A stretch of DNA of 64,000 nucleotides from Intestinimonas butyriciproducens. Its GTDB lineage: Bacteria > Bacillota > Clostridia > Oscillospirales > Butyricicoccaceae. Positions 27,486 to 44,766 of the stretch are shown piece after piece (the first letter of the stretch is position 1; the number at the start of each line of letters is the position of its first letter). Location of the stretch: the NCBI RefSeq assembly GCF_016901775.1, contig NZ_JACJKW010000006.1:62001-126000 (forward strand). The letters run 5' to 3'. The position numbers were made by a program, and so were the translations under genes. The notes beneath the pieces were generated by a model. The model was not told where the DNA came from. It ran no database searches and worked only from the letters and a program-made list of their open reading frames with translations.

Positions 27486-27561
27486 TGGTGACCCATCGGC
27501 GGCTCGAACGCCGGACACCCTCCTTAAAAGGGAGGTGCTCTGCCTACTGAGCTAATGGGTC
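27486..27561 (-). tRNA. tRNA-Lys (TTT), candidate island attachment site
   Basis: A 76-nt cloverleaf with encoded CCA; acceptor GACCCAT/ATGGGTC, anticodon loop CTTTTAA giving TTT. Last gene of the tRNA cluster. Its 3' end abuts the island's integrase, so this end probably serves as attB/attR. The matching repeat should lie left of this window. Confidence 0.95.
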
Positions 27562-27565
27562 ATAT

Positions 27566-27640
27566 TGGCTGGGATGGCAGGATTTGAACCTACGAATGCG
27601 GGAGTCAAAGTCCCGTGCCTTACCCCTTGGCGACATCCCA
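27566..27640 (-). tRNA. tRNA-Gln (TTG)
   Basis: 75 nt with encoded CCA; acceptor TGGGATG/CATCCCA, anticodon loop CTTTGAC giving TTG. Confidence 0.95.
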
Positions 27641-27693
27641 GTATAAACCTTTGCGATGTGCCTTTCGGGATGGTACGGAAAAGAAAAAAGATA

Positions 27694-27771
27694 TGGGGTG
27701 GATGACCGGATTCGAACCGGCGACCCCCAGAGCCACAATCTGGTGCTCTAACCAACTGAGCCACACCCACC
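27694..27771 (-). tRNA. tRNA-His (GTG)
   Basis: Encoded CCA, anticodon loop TTGTGGC giving GTG. The extra 5' G (position -1) pairs with discriminator C, as expected for tRNA-His. Confidence 0.95.
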
Positions 27772-27779
27772 ATATATCC

Positions 27780-27856
27780 TGGCGTGCCCGGAGGGACTCG
27801 AACCCCCAACCTACTGCTTAGAAGGCAGTTGCTCTATCCTGCTGAGCTACGGGCAC
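27780..27856 (-). tRNA. tRNA-Arg (TCT)
   Basis: 77 nt with encoded CCA; acceptor GTGCCCG/CGGGCAC, anticodon loop CTTCTAA giving TCT. Confidence 0.95.
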
Positions 27857-27883
27857 ATACGATAGCGGCCATAGCCACCCGAA

Positions 27884-27957
<74 letters not shown>

Positions 27958-35666: not shown

Positions 35667-36533
35667 TTACCGGGCGATCCAGCGGCTGGTATGGCCGCAG
35701 GGCAGACCCAAACCGGTCTGGGTCACCGGCAGCAACAGCTCGCCGCCCTCCACTTCCCCGCCGTAGCGGCGGGCCATGGTCATGCCCAGCAGATAGACGG
35801 GCACCGAAGGGGAAATGCCGGTGGTATAGGAGTTGATGATGACAAACAAGGGATCGTCGGTGAGCACTTCCATGCACAGCTGAAGGAAGGGCGCAATGCT
35901 CTCTTCAAACTTCCAGATCTCCCCGGAAGGGCCCCGGCCGTAGGAGGGCGGGTCCATGATGATGGCATCGTATTTCCGGCCCCGGCGGATTTCCCGCTGG
36001 ATAAATTTTTTGCAGTCGTCCACAATATAGCGGATGGGAGCCTCGCCCAGGCCGGACAGACGGGCATTTTCCCTGGCCCAGGCCACCATGCCCTTGGATG
36101 CGTCCACATGGCAGACGCTGGCTCCCGCCGAGGCGGCAGCCAGGGTGGCTCCTCCGGTATAAGCAAACAGATTGAGCACATTCACCGGCTTTTTCTTTTT
36201 CCTCTCCGCCACCTGGCGGCGGATAAAATCCCAGTTGGCCGCCTGCTCGGGAAAGACACCGGTATGCTTGAAACTCATGGGCTTGATCTGAAAAGTCAGA
36301 TCTTTATAGTGAATGCGCCAGCTCTCCGGCAGATGGAAAATCTCCCACCGGCCGCCGCCCTTGTCCGAGCGGTGATAGACAGCATCGGGCTTTTCCCACA
36401 GGGGATGCCCGCCTCTGTCCCAGATGGCCTGGGGGTCGGGACGGATCAGGATATGCTCCCCCCATCGTTCCAGTCGTTCTCCACCGCCGCAATCCAGCAG
36501 TTCATATTCCTTCCAGCCATCGGCAGACCACAT
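35667..36533 (-). CDS. RlmI-like class I SAM-dependent RNA methyltransferase
   Basis: 288 aa. Motif I VLNLFAYTGGATLAAA, post-I HVDASKGMV, catalytic-region MDPPSYGRG and the substrate loop NSYTTG place it in the Methyltrans_SAM group with RlmI/YccW-type 23S rRNA cytosine methyltransferases. It lacks the N-terminal PUA domain of RlmI. I prefer ATG 36533 (AGAGGA at 8 nt) over 36566. It is the first gene of the minus-strand operon. Confidence 0.8.
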   Translation of the reverse strand: MWSADGWKEYELLDCGGGERLERWGEHILIRPDPQAIWDRGGHPLWEKPDAVYHRSDKGGGRWEIFHLPESWRIHYKDLTFQIKPMSFKHTGVFPEQAANWDFIRRQVAERKKKKPVNVLNLFAYTGGATLAAASAGASVCHVDASKGMVAWARENARLSGLGEAPIRYIVDDCKKFIQREIRRGRKYDAIIMDPPSYGRGPSGEIWKFEESIAPFLQLCMEVLTDDPLFVIINSYTTGISPSVPVYLLGMTMARRYGGEVEGGELLLPVTQTGLGLPCGHTSRWIAR

Positions 36534-36640
36534 AACTCTGTTCCTCTCGATTCCAGTTTTCTCCATTTTCTCCCGGCGTTCTTCCGCCGGGAATATCCAT
36601 TCTTTCCCTATAAAAAGACGGATGTTCCCATAATCAATTT

Positions 36641-36669
36641 ATTTTACCACCCGGAGCGGGCTTCGTCAA
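36641..36669 (-). promoter_or_regulatory. Sigma-A promoter for the methyltransferase-ecf-truA-clp operon
   Basis: TTGACG (36669-36664), 17-nt spacer, TAAAAT (36646-36641) on the minus strand. Confidence 0.8.
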
Positions 36670-36694
36670 TGAACGGACTGTAAAGACCCCCGAA

Positions 36695-36726
36695 AAGAAA
36701 AGCCGGGACGCTGCCTGCGCCCCGGC
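36695..36726 (-). terminator. Terminator of pduL
   Basis: GCCGGG...CCCGGC hairpin with inner CGC/GCG pairing, followed on the minus strand by TTTTCTTTT. Confidence 0.75.
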
Positions 36727-36743
36727 CCTTTTTGTTTCGGTTG

Positions 36744-37310
36744 TTAGCGGATGATTTCGCCTTCCACCTCACCGGAAATACCGGCGGCATTGGCTTCATC
36801 GGTGTCGATGTGCATACGCAGCAGGAACTTGTCGGACACACGCACCACGGTCTCGTTAAAGACGACGGAACGCTCGCCGGAAGTCTTGACGCTGACCACA
36901 TCCTTGTCCTTCAGACCCAGCTGCTCGGCATCGGCGGGAGTCATGTGGATGTGACGCTTGGCAGCGATGACGCCGCAGGGAATGGTGACTTCGCCGGCAG
37001 GACCAACCAGCTTGACGCTGGGGGAGCCTTCGATGTCGCCGCTTTCACGGACGGGAACCTGGATGCCCAGAGCGCGGGCATCGGTGAAGGAAACTTCCAC
37101 CTGGGAAGCGCTTCTTTCCGGCCCCAGGATGCTCATGTTCAGGGAACCCTTGGGTCCTTCCACCTTGACTTTCTCGTTGCAGGCAAACTGGCCGGGCTGA
37201 CTCAGGTCCTTTTTGGGGGTCAGCTGATAGCCGGCGCCAAAGAGGGTGTCCAGATCCTGGCGGCTCAGATGCAGATGTCTTGCAGAGGTTTCGATGATCA
37301 CATTGGCCAT
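36744..37310 (-). CDS. pduL: Phosphate acyltransferase PduL (phosphotransacetylase)
   Basis: 188 aa, full length without the N-terminal encapsulation peptide that shell-targeted PduL carries. Zinc-ligand histidines appear in SARHLHLS, AAKRHIHMTP and MHIDTDE. It swaps CoA and phosphate on acetyl or propionyl groups, feeding acetate kinase for ATP. No microcompartment genes are nearby, so this is probably the housekeeping Pta of this anaerobe. ATG after GGAGATAGAGAACA. Confidence 0.92.
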   Translation of the reverse strand: MANVIIETSARHLHLSRQDLDTLFGAGYQLTPKKDLSQPGQFACNEKVKVEGPKGSLNMSILGPERSASQVEVSFTDARALGIQVPVRESGDIEGSPSVKLVGPAGEVTIPCGVIAAKRHIHMTPADAEQLGLKDKDVVSVKTSGERSVVFNETVVRVSDKFLLRMHIDTDEANAAGISGEVEGEIIR

Positions 37311-37369
37311 TGTTCTCTATCTCCTTTGTTCTTTGTTCCATGGGGACAAATTGTTTGTTTCCTCTCTAT

Positions 37370-37398
37370 AATTTAACACATCCCCGCCGGTTGCGCAA
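37370..37398 (-). promoter_or_regulatory. Sigma-A promoter of pduL
   Basis: TTGCGC (37398-37393), 17-nt spacer, TAAATT (37375-37370) on the minus strand, about 60 bp upstream of the ATG. Confidence 0.7.
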
Positions 37399-37492
37399 CG
37401 GCGAGGGGAAAAATATTTGTTCCCCGGGGGTGTTTTTTCGCCTTGCTTTGTGATTTTTCTCTTTTTTACCCATAGTTGTGACAAAATGCACC

Positions 37493-37521
37493 TTTACAAA
37501 GGGTATTCATCGGATTATACT
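37493..37521 (+). promoter_or_regulatory. Sigma-A promoter of the XRE regulator
   Basis: TTTACA (37493-37498), 17-nt spacer, TATACT (37516-37521). It is 62 bp upstream of the ATG. Confidence 0.75.
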
Positions 37522-37583
37522 ATAAGCAAGTATCTTTACTTCTTTACACATTCTACAAATTCATTCGTGAGGTTAGAGGCCAC

Positions 37584-38276
37584 ATGGTTACCGATTTCCC
37601 CCGGACGCTGTCGCTTTTGCGGCAGGAGAAAAAACTCAGCCAAAAAAAGGCAGCCGAGGCACTGGGCATTTCCCAGGCGCTGCTGTCTCATTATGAAAAC
37701 GGCGTACGGGAGCCGGGACTGAGCTTTGTGGTCCGGGCTGCCGATTTCTATGGCGTTTCCTGCGACTATCTGCTGGGCCGTACCATGTCCCGGGAAGGGG
37801 CCGCCATCTCGGTGGAAGAGCTGGGGGACCTTTCGGAGGAAAAGGGCAATGTGCTGCGGGGCAGTGTTTCTGCCATGCTCCAAAAGAAGCTGCTGGTCAA
37901 TTCCTCCGGCATTCTGCTGGACATTCTGGGCAAGGTAGGCCACAAGGGCCTCATCGGCGATGTTTCCGCCTATCTGTCCGTTGCCGTCTACAAGGCCTAT
38001 CGCTATGTGTATATGATCTCGGGGAAATATTCCGACACCATGTTCCCGGTGCCCGCCCATCTGTTTTCCGATCTGTGCGATGCCGAAATGAAAATGCGGG
38101 AATACCGCCTGCGTGCTCTGGCTTCCTCCAATCAGGACAGCCGTCAGCCGCTGGAGTTCCCCGATCTGTCCATCGACGGCCTGAGCCAGGAATATCCCAA
38201 TCTGGCCCCCGCTTTGCTGTCGGTGCTCCACAATGTGTCCGAGTCCCTGGAAAAGATGGCTCCTGACCAGGAGTAG
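37584..38276 (+). CDS. XRE-family helix-turn-helix regulator
   Basis: 230 aa. An HTH_3 domain spans about 7-65 (SQKKAAEALGISQALLSHYENG, with the recognition helix at QALLSHYE) and is followed by DYLLGRT, the usual end of such domains. The remaining 160 residues are mostly helical and not recognised; they may sense a ligand or dimerise. The ATG lies 4-5 nt after AGAGG. Lone gene between pduL and the tRNA pair, target unknown. Confidence 0.8.
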   Translation: MVTDFPRTLSLLRQEKKLSQKKAAEALGISQALLSHYENGVREPGLSFVVRAADFYGVSCDYLLGRTMSREGAAISVEELGDLSEEKGNVLRGSVSAMLQKKLLVNSSGILLDILGKVGHKGLIGDVSAYLSVAVYKAYRYVYMISGKYSDTMFPVPAHLFSDLCDAEMKMREYRLRALASSNQDSRQPLEFPDLSIDGLSQEYPNLAPALLSVLHNVSESLEKMAPDQE

Positions 38277-38313
38277 AAGCAAAAAAATTCTCAAACTTTT
38301 TTACAAAAACCTC

Positions 38314-38342
38314 TTGCCAAGCTGAAAAAACTGTGGTATATT
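38314..38342 (+). promoter_or_regulatory. Sigma-A promoter of tRNA-Thr/tRNA-Tyr
   Basis: TTGCCA (38314-38319), 17-nt spacer, TATATT (38337-38342); the first tRNA starts 30 bp downstream. Confidence 0.85.
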
Positions 38343-38372
38343 ATATCTCGCGCCAGATGTGGTGGCAAACAA

Positions 38373-38448
38373 GCTGGTGTAGCTCAGCTGGTAGAGCAGC
38401 TGATTTGTAATCAGCAGGTCGGGGGTTCGAATCCGTCCACCAGCTCCA
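38373..38448 (+). tRNA. tRNA-Thr (TGT)
   Basis: 76 nt with encoded CCA; acceptor GCTGGTG/CACCAGC, anticodon loop TTTGTAA giving TGT. Confidence 0.95.
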
Positions 38449-38457
38449 ATTTCATAT

Positions 38458-38542
38458 GGGAGAGTTCCCGAGTGGCCAAAGGGGGCAGACTGTAAATCTG
38501 TTGCGTTTCGCTTCGATGGTTCGAATCCGTCCTCTCCCACCA
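38458..38542 (+). tRNA. tRNA-Tyr (GTA)
   Basis: 85 nt with a long variable arm and encoded CCA; acceptor GGGAGAG/CTCTCCC, anticodon loop CTGTAAA giving GTA. Confidence 0.95.
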
Positions 38543-38574
38543 ATGCCCGGATGCAATAGCGTCTGGGCATTTTT
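38543..38574 (+). terminator. Terminator of the tRNA-Thr/Tyr unit
   Basis: ATGCCCGGATGC / GCGTCTGGGCAT hairpin with one wobble pair and a 4-nt loop, followed by TTTT. It begins right at the tRNA-Tyr CCA. Confidence 0.85.
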
Positions 38575-38635
38575 AATTGTATTTTCCCCTTAACCAGGGG
38601 TTATTTTTTTGCCCTTTTTCTGTCGCACCCCTCCG

Positions 38636-38664
38636 TTGCGTCTCCGATGCCCCTCTGTTATGAT
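38636..38664 (+). promoter_or_regulatory. Sigma-A promoter of the XRE-TPR gene
   Basis: TTGCGT (38636-38641), 17-nt spacer, TATGAT (38659-38664), 21 bp before the ATG. Confidence 0.75.
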
Positions 38665-38685
38665 GGAGCCAAAGGAGGGAGCTTT

Positions 38686-39759
38686 ATGAAAATCAACGAA
38701 ATCATCCGCACCCGCCGCACAGCCCAGGGACTGACGCAAGAGGCCCTGGCCCAGCTTCTGGGGATCTCCGCTCCGGCGGTAAACAAATGGGAAAAAGGGC
38801 TGAATTATCCCGATATCACCCTGCTTCCCGCCCTGGCCCGGATACTGGGCGTGGATCTGAACACCTTGCTTTCCTTCCAGGAGGACCTGACGCCGGAAGA
38901 AATCGGCCGCTTCTCGGAACAAGTCACCATGGTGGCCCAGGAACAGAGCTGTGCCGCTGCATTCCAGCTGGCCCGGGAAAAGATGCAGGAATTTCCCTCC
39001 TGTGATCTTCTGACCTACACCATGGCTCCATTGCTGGAGGGGATTCTGAATCTTTTCCCACCAAAGAAAGAAGAAGCCGAACCCTTCCACCAGGAGGTTT
39101 TACAGCTTTATGAGCGGGCTGCAAACAGCCATGATCCCCAGATCGGCCAATGGGCCTGCGCGCTTCTGGCCGGCCGCTATATTGCTCAGGGTCAGCTGGA
39201 GCAGGCCAGACCTTTGCTGAAGCAGCTTCCCCAGTCCCACAAAAACAAGCAGCTTCTCCAGGCCTCCCTGGCCCGGAAGGAAGGGGATATCGCCGCTGCA
39301 TGGACGCTGCTGGAGCAGGAGCTGTGGATCCGGGGAAACGGCGTTCTGGAGGTGCTGAGCCACCTGATGGATCTGGCCGCAGAAGAAAAGGACCTGGATC
39401 GGGCCGAAGCCTTTGCCGCCGCTTCCCAAGGTACTGCGGAGGCTCTCCACCTTCCTGCCGCTTCCCGTCTTTCTCTTCCTTTCCAGCTGGCCCTTCTGCA
39501 AAAGGATGGCCCCCGTGTCCTTGCTTTGCTGGAGGAAATCTTCCAGAGCATACACCGCCCTGCTCCCTTTGCCGCCTCCCCCCTCTACTGTCACTTGCCG
39601 GAAAAGGAAGGAGCCGGCAAGGGCCAGCAGATGATGCTGCGCATGATGGTAAAGGGAGTGGAAGAAGATCCGGAATGTGCTTTTCTCCGGGCTTTACCCC
39701 AGTATGCCCTTTGGATGAAAAAATGGCAGAAAAGCGCATTTCAGGAATCCAACCAATAA
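38686..39759 (+). CDS. XRE-family regulator with helical-repeat C-terminus
   Basis: 357 aa. HTH_3 domain at about 5-60 (LTQEALAQLLGISAPAVNKWEKG), followed by some 290 residues of helix-turn-helix pairs with TPR-like spacing (for example WACALLAGRYIAQGQLEQARPLLKQL in two parts). The overall plan recalls peptide-responsive RRNPP regulators, but no signal-peptide gene is visible next to it. ATG 38686 follows AAAGGAGGG; the longer frame upstream is not used. Confidence 0.75.
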   Translation: MKINEIIRTRRTAQGLTQEALAQLLGISAPAVNKWEKGLNYPDITLLPALARILGVDLNTLLSFQEDLTPEEIGRFSEQVTMVAQEQSCAAAFQLAREKMQEFPSCDLLTYTMAPLLEGILNLFPPKKEEAEPFHQEVLQLYERAANSHDPQIGQWACALLAGRYIAQGQLEQARPLLKQLPQSHKNKQLLQASLARKEGDIAAAWTLLEQELWIRGNGVLEVLSHLMDLAAEEKDLDRAEAFAAASQGTAEALHLPAASRLSLPFQLALLQKDGPRVLALLEEIFQSIHRPAPFAASPLYCHLPEKEGAGKGQQMMLRMMVKGVEEDPECAFLRALPQYALWMKKWQKSAFQESNQ

Positions 39760-39761
39760 CC

Positions 39762-39999
39762 AAAAGGCCCGCTCCGGGGAGCGGGCTTCAGCCTGTCGAG
39801 AAACCTTTGTCGCATGAGAGGCCCTTTCGCTCTATCCCTCATCAATCTGCAAAAACCGGCGACCTGTGCGTCGGTTTTTGCACCTCTCAAGGGACAAGTG
39901 TGCGCCAAAGGCGTGCATGCAGGCCCTTGCAAAAACTCGAAAAAGTGGCAAAGCCACTTTTTCGACACGCCCAGGCCCGCTCCGGGGAGCGGGCCTTTT
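39762..39999. repeat. Intergenic element flanked by duplicated terminator hairpins (MITE-like?)
   Basis: A near-identical block, GGCCCGCTCCGGGGAGCGGGC, occurs at 39766-39786 and 39974-39994, each a terminator-type hairpin (the second followed by TTTT). Inside lie imperfect inverted ends TGTCGAGAAA (about 39793) and the complement of TGTCGAAAAA (about 39957-39966), and several nested hairpins including AAAACCGGCGAC...GTCGGTTTT and AAAAAGTGGC/GCCACTTTTT. No convincing ORF. It ends the two convergent genes and may be a dispersed repeat. Confidence 0.6.
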
Positions 40000-40003
40000 G
40001 GTG

Positions 40004-40636
40004 CTATATTTCCTCCATCAGCTCCACAAGCTGGGCAAAGTGATCGATGGCAGTATCATAATCTTTGGTATCTCCAAAACCATAGCGGGCAAACACAAAG
40101 GGAATGCCTGCCTGCCGGGCCGCATGGGAATCCCCCTGGGTATCCCCCACATACACCGGCTGTTTCAGTCCGTTGCGGCGGATGATGAGCTTATTGTTCT
40201 CCCCCTTGGAAAGGCCGGTGGCCCCGAAGCACTCAATGTCCTTGAAATATTTTTCCAGACCCATGGAGCGGAAAAAGCACTGGATATACCCATCCTCACA
40301 GTTGCTGACGATGAAGAGGGGGAACTTGCGGCTGAGGACCTGCAAGGTCTCCTCCACCTGGGGATAGAGCGTTCCGCCCCGTTTTTCCAACACCTGATGC
40401 TCCACCTGGCAGCATTCTTCCAGCAGCCGCTGCTGCTCCGATTCCGGGCACATAGGGAACATCCGCCGGGCGATCTCATCCATAGGCAAGCCCATATAGC
40501 CCTGAAGTTCCGAATACTCCAAAGGCCCCCGCAGATCGGGATGGGCTGCGATCACCTGATTCCAGGCCGTCAGGATCCCCTCCACTGCGTCCCACAAAGT
40601 GCCGTCCAGATCAAAAAGAATGCCGTCTGTCTTCAT
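40004..40636 (-). CDS. HAD-superfamily hydrolase (phosphoglycolate phosphatase-like)
   Basis: 210 aa. HAD motif I FDLDGTLWD (about 7-15), motif II VSNCEDG, motif III with the conserved Lys near SKGENNKL, and motif IV VGDTQGD. A helical cap follows motif I, so it belongs to subfamily I with Gph/PGMB-like phosphatases. ATG 40636 follows GAGGAGAACAAG. The substrate is not determinable from sequence. Confidence 0.82.
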   Translation of the reverse strand: MKTDGILFDLDGTLWDAVEGILTAWNQVIAAHPDLRGPLEYSELQGYMGLPMDEIARRMFPMCPESEQQRLLEECCQVEHQVLEKRGGTLYPQVEETLQVLSRKFPLFIVSNCEDGYIQCFFRSMGLEKYFKDIECFGATGLSKGENNKLIIRRNGLKQPVYVGDTQGDSHAARQAGIPFVFARYGFGDTKDYDTAIDHFAQLVELMEEI

Positions 40637-40715
40637 CTTGTTCTCCTCTGTCTCTTTCCTGTATTTTTCCTTTTGCATCATACCTTTTTCAAAGGAGAAA
40701 ATCAATCCCCTTTTC

Positions 40716-41354
40716 CTACCCCAACAAGCGGAAAAAGGCCAAAAGCAGAAGGAGCAGGCCGCTGCACCAGCCCATTTCCCCTTCTCCCCGTTTCCCCATC
40801 CGCCGGCCCAGGAAATGCCCCAGCCCCAGCAGGATCAAAGTAGCCAGCAGGGAAAAAAGGAACAGCAGACGGGGGTCCATGCCCCCCAAGCCGGCTCCCA
40901 CCCCGGCGGCCGCCCCATCCAGAGACAGGGCAGCCCCCAACAAAAGACCTTCTCTGGGAGATAAGCTGCGGGAGCCGTCGGCATCGGCCCGGGAAGGGTC
41001 AGCATACAGGCATAGGATACACCGAAAACTCCACAGACGAAACCGCATTTCTCCTCTTCCGCCCCATTTGCGCACCCAGCGTTTGAGCATGCTGTCACAG
41101 ATTTTGCAAAAACCCAAAGCCGCCAGCAAAAAGGCGCACAGCCACTGGAGGCCTCCAGCCAAAGGCTGCCACAGCGCTCCGGCCCAGGCCCCTGCGGCCA
41201 GCACACCGCTGCAGCACAAAGCCACCACCAACGCGCTCTTTCCCGGCAAGCGGATCTCCCCCGCTCCATAAGCCAGGCTGGCAAAAAAAGCGTCCAGAGA
41301 CAGGGCCAGCACCAAGGTTCCGGCTTCCAGCCCCTGACGAACAAGTCCAGGCAA
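40716..41354 (-). CDS. ytaF: YtaF/MntP-like sporulation membrane protein
   Basis: About 212 aa with six predicted helices in two mirrored halves. Each half begins with a LDA/LDG helix motif (ALSLDAFFASLAYG and AALSLDGAAAGVG), which is the signature of the MntP/YtaF family and includes the acidic residues that line the manganese site of MntP. The start is uncertain: no ATG is available and TTG codons follow AAAGGGG, so I took the TTG at 41354. Confidence 0.75.
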   Translation of the reverse strand: MPGLVRQGLEAGTLVLALSLDAFFASLAYGAGEIRLPGKSALVVALCCSGVLAAGAWAGALWQPLAGGLQWLCAFLLAALGFCKICDSMLKRWVRKWGGRGEMRFRLWSFRCILCLYADPSRADADGSRSLSPREGLLLGAALSLDGAAAGVGAGLGGMDPRLLFLFSLLATLILLGLGHFLGRRMGKRGEGEMGWCSGLLLLLLAFFRLLG

Positions 41355-41425
41355 AGGCAAAAACCCCTTTCCGGTTTTTGCTTTATCCTATGCCCTCCCT
41401 TTCCAAAGGGTCCCTGCCCCTTGTC

Positions 41426-42079
41426 CTAATCCTCCTGCTCTTTGGCCTGCTGGGCATACTGCTCTGCCAAAGCCGCAAATTCCTCCATACGCCCATTCTC
41501 CCGGATGGTCTGGGGACAGTTTTTTCCGCTGAAATCGTAATGCTCTTTCACCTGATCGGCCGAGAGATCATAGGCGTTCATCAGCCAACCGGTGAGCCGG
41601 GCGGCGTTGTCAAAAGTTTTTTCAAAATCCCCATCTGCATTGACGCACAGCTCCACACCGATGCCGTGGAGGTTGCCATCCCCTTCGGCGCCGTCTCCTG
41701 CATGATAGGCCACTTCATCATCGGGGATGCTGTGCCACACCTCGGCGTCATCCACCGTATAGTGCCATCCTGTGGTTCCTTCGCCCCCTTTGGCCTCCAA
41801 CTGGCCATGGGCGGCTGCATCGGCCCCGGCGGCGATGTTCCCCGTTTCGTGAATAACGATGTACCGGATCTCTCTTTTAGTTCCCGGCCGGTTCTGTGCC
41901 CCTTCCGGAGCCAGCTGGGTGTACACCGGCACCCCCAGTACATCCTCCGGATACAGTCCCTCCGTGGGTGCGCTCAGCAGTTTCCAGGCCCCGAATGCCA
42001 CTCCGGCTACCAGGACAACCCCCAGCAGCAGACCGCAGCCTTTTCCCTTTCTTCTTTTCCGCCGTCTTTTCTGAGCCAT
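41426..42079 (-). CDS. Membrane-anchored N-acetylmuramoyl-L-alanine amidase (Amidase_2)
   Basis: 217 aa. A very basic cytoplasmic tip (RRRKRRKGKG), one transmembrane anchor (about 13-32), then an Amidase_2 domain: VIHETGN (first zinc His), WHYTVDD, WHSIPDDEVAYHAGDG (further ligands and active-site Glu/His region). It cleaves the amide between muramic acid and the stem peptide; the CwlA-like type is often used in sporulation or lysis. ATG 42079 lies 7 nt after GGAGG. Confidence 0.88.
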   Translation of the reverse strand: MAQKRRRKRRKGKGCGLLLGVVLVAGVAFGAWKLLSAPTEGLYPEDVLGVPVYTQLAPEGAQNRPGTKREIRYIVIHETGNIAAGADAAAHGQLEAKGGEGTTGWHYTVDDAEVWHSIPDDEVAYHAGDGAEGDGNLHGIGVELCVNADGDFEKTFDNAARLTGWLMNAYDLSADQVKEHYDFSGKNCPQTIRENGRMEEFAALAEQYAQQAKEQED

Positions 42080-42195
42080 CTCCATCCCTCCTTTTCCCCG
42101 GACAACGCCAAAGCGGCCTGTCCCGCTGCTTCTATCATACAGTGGGGCAGGCCGCCGAATCTTAAATTTTCTCTTAATCTTTCCTCAGTCTTTTC

Positions 42196-43326
42196 TTACT
42201 TTGTGAGGAAAGCATCCACCGCGCGGAAAAGCGCCTCGGCCTCCTGGTGCAGTTTTGCGGTGCTGTTGATCATTTCCACATCTTCCGGGTTATCCATAAA
42301 GGCAAACTCCGAAATGACTGCTGTGACATTGACGCCGGCCGCCGCCCGGAGCAGACCGTAATAATCTCCGGTTTTAGTGCTGTTATAGCGGTAGATGATG
42401 GGCCGGACCTTCTGGCCCAGCTTGGCATATTCCTCACCGATCAGTTCTGCCAGTTCGGTGGAAGGGCCGCCGTTTTTGTCGGCCACCTGAGCCAGCACTT
42501 CGGCGCCGGTGGCATTATGGGCTTCGGTGGCATTGTGATGGACGCTGATGACCAGATCGGGCTTGACCTCCCGGATCATGTTCATCCGGTTGGTGAGGGA
42601 CAGCGTTTCTCCTTCGCCCCGGGTAAAGATCACCTGATAGCCGGCCTGCCGGAGAAGCGACCCCAGATGCTCCGCCACCACATAGTTGACCTCACTTTCC
42701 ACAAGGCCCATTTCCTTGTTCACCGTGCCGCTTTCCGAACCGCCGTGGCCCGGATCCACCATCACCACGATATCGCTCCGGTCCACCGTTGTATCAGGAG
42801 GCGTTACCGGTGTGGTATTCAGCGGGGCACATTCGATGAGAACCCGCCGCTGGGCATCGTCATACTGCACGCTGAAATCCAGAGCATCCCCCAGATCCCG
42901 CAGTTTGAAATATGTATAACCTTCAATGTTATAGGCCGTCATCTGCGCCCGGACCCCATCGATATAAACGGCCGCCTGGCTGCTCACCGCCTGTTTGATG
43001 GTGGTGCTGCCCTGAGGAGGGCTCAGCTCAGTACCCAGGGGGGTATAGCGCTGGCCGGTGCTGATATAAATGGAATTGGTATCGTTGCTGTATTGGATCT
43101 CAAAGGATTTGTCCCCGCCGCTGAGGGCCTGGGCCACATCCCGCAATTTGAAATAGTTATTGTCGTTGATGTTATAAGCTTCCACACCAATGGTCTTGTC
43201 ATAAACCAGCACCGGCATGTTATTCAGTTGAGCTTTCTGCGCCGCAGCCAGCCCCACACACCCCAGCAAGGCGAAAAGCAAAGCAGCCAGCAGAAAACCT
43301 CCTGCGATTCTTCCTTTCTTTCTCAT
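42196..43326 (-). CDS. Secreted N-acetylmuramoyl-L-alanine amidase (Amidase_3) with copper-amine-oxidase-like stalk domains
   Basis: 376 aa. A signal peptide (MRKKGRIAGGFLLAALLF, then an Ala-rich cleavage region) is followed by two repeats of the YNINDNNYFKLRDVAQAL / YNIEGYTYFKLRDLGDAL type, which match the CAO N1-like wall-associated domain. The Amidase_3 domain has MVDPGHGGSESG (zinc His), ESEVNYVV (zinc Glu), SVHHNA and a late ISEFAFMDNP (catalytic Glu). ATG 43326 follows GGAGGAGACC. Confidence 0.9.
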   Translation of the reverse strand: MRKKGRIAGGFLLAALLFALLGCVGLAAAQKAQLNNMPVLVYDKTIGVEAYNINDNNYFKLRDVAQALSGGDKSFEIQYSNDTNSIYISTGQRYTPLGTELSPPQGSTTIKQAVSSQAAVYIDGVRAQMTAYNIEGYTYFKLRDLGDALDFSVQYDDAQRRVLIECAPLNTTPVTPPDTTVDRSDIVVMVDPGHGGSESGTVNKEMGLVESEVNYVVAEHLGSLLRQAGYQVIFTRGEGETLSLTNRMNMIREVKPDLVISVHHNATEAHNATGAEVLAQVADKNGGPSTELAELIGEEYAKLGQKVRPIIYRYNSTKTGDYYGLLRAAAGVNVTAVISEFAFMDNPEDVEMINSTAKLHQEAEALFRAVDAFLTK

Positions 43327-43428
43327 GGTCTCCTCCAAAAAAATCAGGCATGGCTTCCCACCATGCCAGGCGCGAAAAAATGTATCTGCGGCCTGTTTCA
43401 CGCCGCAGCGCTTTTGCAAATCGATGTT

Positions 43429-43458
43429 ATTATACCATTTTTCATCCTCTTTCGTCTA
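43429..43458 (-). promoter_or_regulatory. Promoter of the Amidase_3 gene
   Basis: TAGACG-N18-TATAAT on the minus strand (-10 at 43434-43429), about 103 bp upstream of the ATG. Confidence 0.6.
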
Positions 43459-43764
43459 CCATATAAGCCATTATTTTTTGAAAAAAGCCATTTTTACCCA
43501 CCAAAAGTTCTGTTCTTTCAGTTTTCAGCAAATTTTTTGGTTATTTTGACAGATAATTTACAGTGGTAATGTACCGAAAAAAGAGGTATGATAAAAATAG
43601 AAAATTGTTTCCTTTTCTGCACTTTCCTGGACCGCGGAAAGTTCTCCCTCCCTATCTTTCCGCTATGGTCCGCTTTTCTCCCCGCCCGCCCCTTTGCGGG
43701 GCGGGTGCTTTTCCCAAAAAGGTCCGGTGCCCCATGGCCCCGGACCTTTTGCATATATGATTGA
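43459..43764. other. Intergenic region with terminators, no gene seen
   Basis: Holds the terminator of the asparaginase gene on the minus strand: AAAGGTCCGG...CCGGACCTTTTT (43719-43751). A second hairpin follows (CCCGCCCC/GGGGCGGG, about 43685-43705). A TTGACA at 43547 on the plus strand has no good -10. I see no coding frame with a ribosome binding site. Confidence 0.65.
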
Positions 43765-44766
43765 TTATGCCTTGTGCAAAGTGAACTCGGGGCGCATGCT
43801 CCCCACTTCTTCCTGCTTGTGGTTGCGCATTTTGGGTGTGTGGGTATCGGCAAATTCCGCCAGATCTTCCTGGGAGATGATCCCCAGCTGGCGAAGCACT
43901 TCCACCACCACCGCATTACGGGCCTGACCATTGCCGCTGTCGATTTTCACAGCAATGCCAATGCCTTCCTTTTTGTCTCCCACAATATAATAGCCATCGG
44001 CTCCCGATTTGCAGAAGAGGCGATCATATTTTTCCATCAGCTGGGCATCGATCCGGCCGGTGCCCGACATGATCAGGGGATATTTTCCCATGGCAGCTGT
44101 AATGCGGGCCGCTTCCGCTCCCATCTTTTCTCCCAGGCTCTCGGGATGGGCCATACGGGCGATGCCATAGGCAAACTGCCGCAAGGGCAGAGCGTGCACC
44201 GGCACACCGCAGCCATCGGTACCCATGATGATCTTCCCGGGATCATACTCACAGATCTCTCCGATCATATGAAGGATCCGCTGCTGCACTGGATGCTCCG
44301 GCTTATAATAGGTATTCAGATCCTCCCCCATGGCCGCGGCGGTGACCAGCATTCCCGAATGTTTGCCGCTGCAGTTGCAATGGATCTGGCTGGGACTTTC
44401 TCCGGCCGCCTTCATCCGGTCGGCTTCCGGCTCATACAAGGGATAATGGATGCCGCACTGGAGAACGCTCTCTGTCAGCCCGGCCTTGCCCAGCGCCCGG
44501 CGCACCGCCTGGACATGCATGGGTTCCCCGTTGTGGGAAGCACAGAACAAAGCGATGTCCTGATCGTCCAGACCGTATTTTTCCACAGCGCCGCTTTCCA
44601 GCACGCACATGGCCTGCATGGGCTTTGCCGAAGAACGGGCATAACAGACTCTCTCCGGATCGCCGCAGGAATAAAGCAGCTTACCGGTATAATCCACCAC
44701 AGCGATATGGCCGGTGTGCATCATATCCTGCAACGGCCCACGATAGGTATTGACCAAAACTTCCAC
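43765..44766 (-). CDS. L-asparaginase II family protein
   Basis: 333 aa, one domain. Motifs SSAKPMQA, ASHNGEPMHV, HCNCSGKHSGML and MGTDGCGVPVHAL identify the Asparaginase_II (Rhizobium-type) family, unrelated in fold to classical AnsA/AnsB. It hydrolyses asparagine to aspartate and ammonia. GTG start 6 nt after GAGGG. Own promoter just upstream. Confidence 0.9.
   Translation of the reverse strand: MEVLVNTYRGPLQDMMHTGHIAVVDYTGKLLYSCGDPERVCYARSSAKPMQAMCVLESGAVEKYGLDDQDIALFCASHNGEPMHVQAVRRALGKAGLTESVLQCGIHYPLYEPEADRMKAAGESPSQIHCNCSGKHSGMLVTAAAMGEDLNTYYKPEHPVQQRILHMIGEICEYDPGKIIMGTDGCGVPVHALPLRQFAYGIARMAHPESLGEKMGAEAARITAAMGKYPLIMSGTGRIDAQLMEKYDRLFCKSGADGYYIVGDKKEGIGIAVKIDSGNGQARNAVVVEVLRQLGIISQEDLAEFADTHTPKMRNHKQEEVGSMRPEFTLHKA

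Follow-up and report, generated by a model that had tools for sequence, protein, structure and literature searches.

Positions 39789–39972 of the window, by which we mean the whole 64,000-nucleotide stretch of Intestinimonas butyriciproducens DNA that was analysed, are best read as a MITE with IS1182-family ends, which a transposase supplied in trans would have joined to the feet of a terminator stem-loop; judging from the sequence, we put the probability of this reading at about 0.88. The element proper measures 184 bp and has no gene of its own, its boundaries having been set by comparing the copies in its own genome and by the IS1182 ends. The first-pass annotation had taken the stretch 39762–39999, which lies between convergent genes ending at 39759 (+ strand) and 40004 (− strand), for an element bounded by identical terminator hairpins. 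The hairpins are indeed identical over 22 bp, but they are not parts of the element: they are duplicated target DNA. The locus is organised as follows.

38647–39759, + strand: upstream gene for an HTH-domain-like protein (read from its translation), ending 5 nt 5' of the left hairpin
39765–39788, no strand assigned: left copy of the terminator hairpin (target-site duplication), with 39765–39786 identical to 39973–39994
39789–39972, + strand: mobile element, MITE-like, 184 bp, delimited by own-copy comparison and IS1182 ends
39789–39807, + strand: left terminal sequence CAGCCTGTCGAGAAACCTT, 17/19 identical to an IS1182-family IS end
about 39849–39881, + strand: hairpin A, 12-bp stem and 9-nt loop GACCTGTGC (39861–39869), matched by covariance model R1
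39888–39929, + strand: hairpin B, outer stem CAAGGG/CCCTTG enclosing an inner stem-loop, from covariation and the anchored helix B test in relatives
39937–39965, + strand: hairpin C, subterminal (TCGAAAAAGTGGC...GCCACTTTTTCGA), a stem-loop in the sequence with covariation
39954–39972, − strand: right terminal sequence, inverted and imperfect, GGGCGTGTCGAAAAAGTGG, at most 14/19 identical to an IS end
39973–39996, no strand assigned: right copy of the terminator hairpin, running on into TTTGG, from the palindrome and the repeat comparison
40004–40705, − strand: convergent gene for a HAD-like phosphatase (read from its translation), with 65% identity to its best match in G001, the only other genome of the genus

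The duplicated block, initially estimated at about 21 bp with hairpins at both ends, is an exact repeat of 22 bp: AGGCCCGCTCCGGGGAGCGGGC occurs at 39765–39786 and at 39973–39994 with 22/22 bp identical and a start-to-start spacing of 208. Together with the next two bases it forms a 24-bp palindrome, in which the left copy carries one substitution. Rejoining the window flanks with one hairpin yields a hairpin with a 16-bp stem and A- and T-tract arms (−34.9 kcal/mol). The inverted ends (TGTCGAGAAA / TTTTTCGACA) are present and imperfect, as described, agreeing at 11 of 19 positions around a common TGTCGA-AAA; a scan of the window alone for TTTTTCGACA returned eight matches at one mismatch (shuffle mean 3.3) and did not single out the element. 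Two of the internal stem-loops that had been noticed lie at about 39849–39881 and at 39937–39965, and none of 200 dinucleotide shuffles folds as well as the stretch on either strand (z of −9.8 and −7.7). By eye, a hairpin similar to hairpin C is found just inside the left end of L151, an autonomous relative described below. The convergent gene setting was read correctly, and the absence of an ORF holds in that no gene belongs to the element: frames of at least 60 aa do traverse the stretch (e.g. 39741–39968, minus strand, 75 aa), each listed one entering the hairpins or genes on its flanks. Genes for a Thr and a Tyr tRNA are located at window positions 38373–38542, upstream of the HTH gene, and a five-tRNA cluster at 27486–27957.

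The element is dispersed through its own genome (2,584,430 bases in 74 contigs). A search with 39755–40005, in which 40 of 102 candidates were scored, returned the window copy and at least 39 other full places at 78–91% identity, plus short hairpin matches. A pattern for the most conserved part matched 72 places (the reversed control pattern, none), and an HMM run over the extracted loci recognised at least 73 copies (E below 1e-17), 61 of them near full length; because the HMM scanned only extracted loci, 73 is a lower bound. The locus is therefore not the single-copy, unstructured site conserved among relatives that would have spoken against a mobile repeat, and a single-copy conserved RNA was rejected on the same copy number together with the one congener, G001, which has no comparable copy and holds a different element with a similar right-end hairpin (L032). 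Within the family, DNA similarity gave matches in seven of 87 genomes, own included, some of them short. No match at E≤1e-5 was obtained among 72,556 plasmid and 50,697 phage records, and a plasmid- or phage-borne element was rejected on this ground. With gene orientation called by codon usage, 71 copies divide into 26 with converging flanking genes, 22 whose two neighbours are antisense to the element, 12 whose neighbours are both sense and six with divergent genes, the remaining five being not fully called. A second size class of about 209 bp accounts for 16 of the 61 aligned own copies (e.g. L088, L092, L085), with some 20 extra bp in hairpin B (GCCGATTGRCCGC...GCGGCCAATCGGC) that are able to self-pair.

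What is duplicated around these copies is a terminator-like hairpin that differs from locus to locus. Direct repeats of alignment score at least 28 were found near the element ends in 46 of 71 copies (two of the 73, at contig edges, were left out), versus 9 of 4970 mismatched pairs combining the left flank of one copy with the right flank of another. The repeats are 16–43 bp long (median 26) and usually lie within a few bases of the element ends; 27 of the 46 pairs are identical and 35 are strongly palindromic, compared to 90 of 2300 shuffled sequences. Differences inside the pairs amount to 35 mismatches and six gaps over 1220 columns, and at L013 one stem pair differs between the hairpin copies by a compensatory change. 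An A-tract lies to the left of 26 of the 46 duplications and a T-tract to the right of 24, with both present at 14. The bases just outside the duplications show no excess of complementarity (2.87 of 6 within a copy vs 2.80 between copies, permutation p 0.40). The other 25 copies have no repeat of score at least 28; by eye, several have kept just one of the two hairpins, and weaker repeats are visible in a few. In copies whose 3' half was unmatched by the HMM, the right end was placed by a motif.

Orthologous sites lacking the element are found in G001, for which the comparison covered 20 stretches of 20 kb and the located HAD match. Five copies have strong syntenic flanks there (L007, L084, L086, L087, L109), and the four sites inspected, namely L007, L084, L086 and the HAD side of the window locus, contain no element. 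One terminator hairpin is present in G001 at the L007 site, the L086 site and the HAD side, its sequence differing from our own because G001 is another species. At L084, 3' of an rplQ-like gene, our own genome has two terminators; the first is shared with G001, and the element, present in our own genome only, sits in the second. G001 has two hairpins at this site, one of them in common with ours. Weak tblastx co-hits in further G001 stretches (L020, L068, L091, L101) were judged not syntenic and dropped.

The same duplication accompanies autonomous relatives. G047, a genome of the same family, carries a 1571-bp insertion sequence (L151:1272–2842) whose 492-aa product is an IS1182-family transposase (NF033551, 403.5 bits against a cut-off of 270), whose ends are CAGTCTGTCGAAAAAGTCC and, inverted, CAGCCTGTCGAGAAACCCG, and which is flanked on both sides by an exact 30-bp terminator-like hairpin repeat. 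The left end of our element is identical to IS ends at 17 of 19 positions, the best of 20,000 random 19-mers from the window reaching 14; the right end scores 14/19, equal to that best, and alone is not significant. Searching the 394 genomes of the order with the L151 protein gave relatives in 42 (E≤1e-20). Thirty IS loci were extracted, several being fragments or distant, and 14 had two recognisable ends and flanks. Ten of the 14 lie between whole-hairpin repeats of 26–39 bp (L161, which is L151, and L162, L164, L165, L167, L168, L171, L172, L173 and L180; the L171 repeat has two differences). Three (L163, L166, L170) abut a hairpin at either end, both complete but unlike each other, consistent with recombination between copies, and one, L184, is shortened to about 1.0 kb between its ends and has a hairpin on the left only. 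In a survey of the family for DUF772, an exact long repeat was seen at L151 alone of 30 loci, many of them fragments, and the hairpin duplication therefore belongs to a subgroup. G355 contains an autonomous IS (L162) as well as a hairpin-A MITE (L270) whose ends are of the same type and which has the internal module and a duplicated hairpin. Across the 394 genomes, hairpin A co-occurs with the transposase in 15, compared to 7.1 expected (p 0.0015, uncorrected for kinship). The early proposal of a MITE-like repeat inserted at a terminator and duplicating it is thus upheld by the 73 copies, the locus-specific hairpin pairs, the four element-free sites and the IS1182-type ends.

We postulate that an IS1182-type transposase, probably supplied in trans, recognises a bidirectional intrinsic terminator by its stem-loop, which is probably extruded as a cruciform. 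Our own genome yielded no IS1182 transposase, with no match to the L151 protein at E≤1e-20 and an empty PF05598 search (0/1), which is why we invoke mobilisation in trans; a resident transposase would not be needed had the parent been lost, but its absence counts against the reading. Each element end would be joined to the 5' foot of the stem-loop on one of the two strands, after which repair of the gaps would leave a full copy of the hairpin on either side of the element. The length of the duplication tracks that of the hairpin, so that both strands are probably cut at these feet; conversely, such cuts and the ensuing repair would explain why the duplications follow hairpin length and palindromy (16–43 bp) and not a fixed base count. 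A minus-strand half-terminator (left hairpin and A-tract) and a plus-strand one (right hairpin and T-tract) would both survive, so that insertion is likely to be nearly harmless or neutral. The element would end up inside the 3' ends of converging transcripts. The internal A–B hairpin module is a separate conserved cargo that, we think, acts as RNA.

In ISfinder, IS1182 elements are entered with direct repeats that are long and variable, and the duplication as such may therefore be known to curators. In the literature, largely outside subscription journals, we found no report of whole-terminator duplication by IS1182 elements as an observed outcome, nor of the GACMTGYGC hairpin module. Group IIC introns insert at intrinsic terminator stem-loops and are not known to leave a target duplication, whereas here the target DNA is duplicated and the ends are those of a DNA transposon; such an intron was rejected on the duplicated target and the lack of an Rfam intron match.

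The nearest published system is IS1272/TnSha1 of staphylococci. The available text of Furi et al. 2016 (PMC4923244) describes targeting of hairpins, with five of seven sites confirmed as terminators, and partial deletion without duplication; that of Wan et al. 2017 (PMC5678879) describes removal of the stem-loop under a structure-dependent model and draws duplication of a whole stem-loop as a hypothetical pathway b. Both mention IS1182 elements that target palindromes, citing Siguier et al. As far as these accounts go, IS1272/TnSha1 shares its transposase family with the autonomous relatives here (NF033551) and targets terminator or other stem-loops without primary-sequence preference, but its stem-loop is deleted or replaced without duplication (PMC4923244, PMC5678879), while ours is duplicated whole. 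An IS1272-type stem-loop-replacing element was rejected for our locus, where the window copy has a hairpin on both sides and direct repeats occur at 46/71 copies. The elements described here are therefore natural cases of the pathway b branch. If this is true, a pathway so far only drawn occurs in nature, and its duplications are whole hairpins of any length.

Several small repeats resemble our element in part. MITEPye1 of Paracoccus yeei is, in the portion of its description available (PMC11578231), a 159-bp, ORF-less, intergenic element with IS1182-type terminal inverted repeats and a strong fold; it is present at 1–3 copies per chromosome with 4-bp direct repeats, whereas our element has at least 73 copies and hairpin-long repeats, and a terminator target is not mentioned in that portion. 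The published IS1182-family cases with 4-bp repeats that we met in such partial accounts are MITEPye1 (PMC11578231) and ISCaa15. MITEs with IS1182 ends are thus known from MITEPye1 (PMC11578231, same portion), and the structured module inside ours is possibly new. The BrickBuilt MITE of Porphyromonas gingivalis (PMC4596501) is likewise multi-copy and intergenic with end repeats that vary in length, but, by its description as available, is without an IS1182 link or whole-terminator duplication. SPRITE, RUP and BOX of Streptococcus pneumoniae are small dispersed intergenic repeats, SPRITE being terminator-like, and the parts of their descriptions at hand (PMC3049150, PMC10969869) mention neither whole-terminator duplication nor IS1182 ends. 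Across dozens of insertions, then, the duplicated target is a complete nucleic-acid structure and not a fixed number of base pairs; natural ISs make cruciform recognition by an IS1182 transposase testable, and a repeat can spread through a genome at terminators while leaving these unbroken, because both half-terminators would survive.

The interior of the element is structured and conserved in pairing. In 61 own copies, entered without a structure filter (set A1), helices A, B and C are 95.7% paired, and 17 of 32 pairs have changed on both sides, compared to a shuffle mean of 5.6 and none of 500 shuffles as high; the covariation anticipated for a structured RNA is thus present in all three helices. 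The loop of hairpin A fits GACMTGYGC in 52 of these copies. Over 17 elements (set A2, six of them own copies) hairpin A is 97.1% paired with double changes at 10 of 12 pairs, although loop and pairing are partly built into this figure, because the non-own sequences had been preselected for the loop motif and for pairing at no fewer than 9 of 12 positions. Unfiltered, the loop appears on one strand in 16 of 17 BLAST-found relatives and 25 of 26 model-found loci. With a model of hairpin A alone, matches at E≤0.01 are found in 67 of the 394 genomes of the order, and at E≤0.001 in 61; the 67 span 32 of 169 genera and often have many copies. A sample of 398 genomes from across the phylum gave three at E≤0.001, two of them from this order. 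None of the 22 IS loci examined contained hairpin A. Many elements have a short linker, often of 6 nt, after hairpin A and then helix B; 12 distinct B helices from a limited genome set, their strands fixed by position and motif and not by pairing, are 94.8% paired versus 67.0% when shuffled (maximum 83.3%). Read on the + strand, helix A contains 56 G–U and three A–C cells, which suggests a + strand RNA, but a single column pair accounts for 46 of the 56, and these may stem from one event. Rfam gave no match at the element (36000–44000, E up to 1) or at the module in 10 related loci (E up to 0.5), and a known Rfam RNA family was rejected for want of any curated covariance model matching either. 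We lean towards the module acting as RNA over its serving as single-stranded DNA used in transposition. The shared hairpin, seen in 67/394 genomes of the order and unmatched in Rfam, is a candidate for a class of structured RNA.

The original choice between a MITE-like repeat and a structured RNA proves partly a false one, since a covarying structured module lies inside a MITE-like element. We give an even chance to both holding at once in a fuller form, with a subgroup of IS1182 elements and their MITEs cutting at cruciform feet and the A–B module forming an unnamed class of structured RNA, or of functional single-stranded DNA, in Oscillospirales-like bacteria; this module comprises the 12-bp hairpin with its near-invariant GACMTGYGC loop, the linker and a helix that closes a conserved internal loop, and would then be cargo of several different small elements and of fixed loci, perhaps for transposition or host interaction. 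That the RNA comes first, as a putative sRNA or 3'-UTR regulator built from hairpins A and B and selected by the host, with the transposon ends as its vehicle or its past, is possible but rather unlikely. The double changes in helices A, B and C (17/32 pairs in 61 own copies; shuffle mean 5.6) are what it predicts, as is the pairing of hairpin A over 17 elements (10/12 pairs), most of which were picked through the loop and pairing filter; the GACMTGYGC loop (52/61 own copies, 25/26 model-found loci), the anchored helix B (94.8% paired vs 67.0%), the concentration of hairpin A in the order (67/394 vs 3/398 for the phylum sample) and the five Agathobaculum loci at which it adjoins an infB-like 3' end and no hairpin is duplicated also agree with it. 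Single-stranded DNA could be served by hairpin structure equally well, however, B is missing from three elements (by eye), and the own-genome copies show no clear orientation preference relative to neighbouring genes.

This lack of a clear orientation preference also weighs against a SINE-like retrotransposition, target-primed at the cruciform with an RNA copy set between nicks at the stem feet, as a transcript-derived insertion might be expected to show a bias. Duplications of variable length around an internal RNA-like module, and the 56-to-3 ratio of G–U to A–C cells in helix A on the + strand (46/56 in one column pair), would suit such a route, yet the element has defined inverted ends in common with DNA transposons that make the same duplication, and we regard it as very improbable. 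Mobilisation by a transposase other than the IS1182 type, the ends being alike through convergence on a terminator-targeting end, has a little more to recommend it, in that our own genome yielded no IS1182 transposase and the right end has diverged; it is nonetheless improbable given the 17/19 left end, the same unusual whole-hairpin duplication at IS1182 elements and the roughly twofold excess of hairpin A in transposase-bearing genomes (15 vs 7.1 of 394, uncorrected for kinship). Practically negligible is the notion of two ordinary terminators, alike by chance or local duplication with unrelated DNA between them: converging genes would each need one, but the DNA between is a 73-copy repeat, the hairpin pairs match locus by locus, and in G001 a single hairpin, without the element, follows the HAD match. 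Independent but similar terminators were rejected on the locus-specific pairs and that single hairpin. Insertion of an IS1182-type MITE at the stem-loop remains the reading we prefer.

Scanning named genomes, a set from which own records may be missing, for the hairpin A pattern gave 34 stretches from Agathobaculum, Butyricicoccus pullicaecorum and unclassified Clostridia and Oscillospiraceae MAGs, which makes Butyricicoccaceae, in the order Oscillospirales, the probable family of the window. Repeats containing a whole hairpin occur in all five stretches of G004 and in one of two of G390; G231 and G406 have no hairpin-only repeat in 11 stretches (12 were taken, one without a row), and the G003 stretch is without such a repeat. 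Two hairpin-A elements of G406 (L286, L287) lie between direct repeats of 37 and 86 bp that resemble the 3' ends of neighbouring genes, the 86-bp one including a terminator-like hairpin, perhaps by another route to gene-end duplication. At L251 (G406:C9), a hairpin-A element has a tRNA gene on one side and, on the other, a repeat of about 44 bp of this tRNA sequence, with a match to Gut-1 RNA (45.5 bits, gathering 50) 0.4 kb away. At the five Agathobaculum loci (L207, L210, L214, L220, L224), hairpin A and a B-like hairpin adjoin the infB-like 3' end without a duplicated hairpin, and by eye an rbfA-like start lies on the other side in three; this module is a fixed copy, possibly exapted by the host. 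At L195, L206 and L212, again by eye, a C-type hairpin follows hairpin A directly, without B. Lastly, L267 (G221:C35) and L269 (G186:C78) are tandem arrays that look alike, both made up of three hairpin-A-bearing units of 183 bp, in genomes assigned to different families of the order, a possible case of recent transfer or of MAG contamination.
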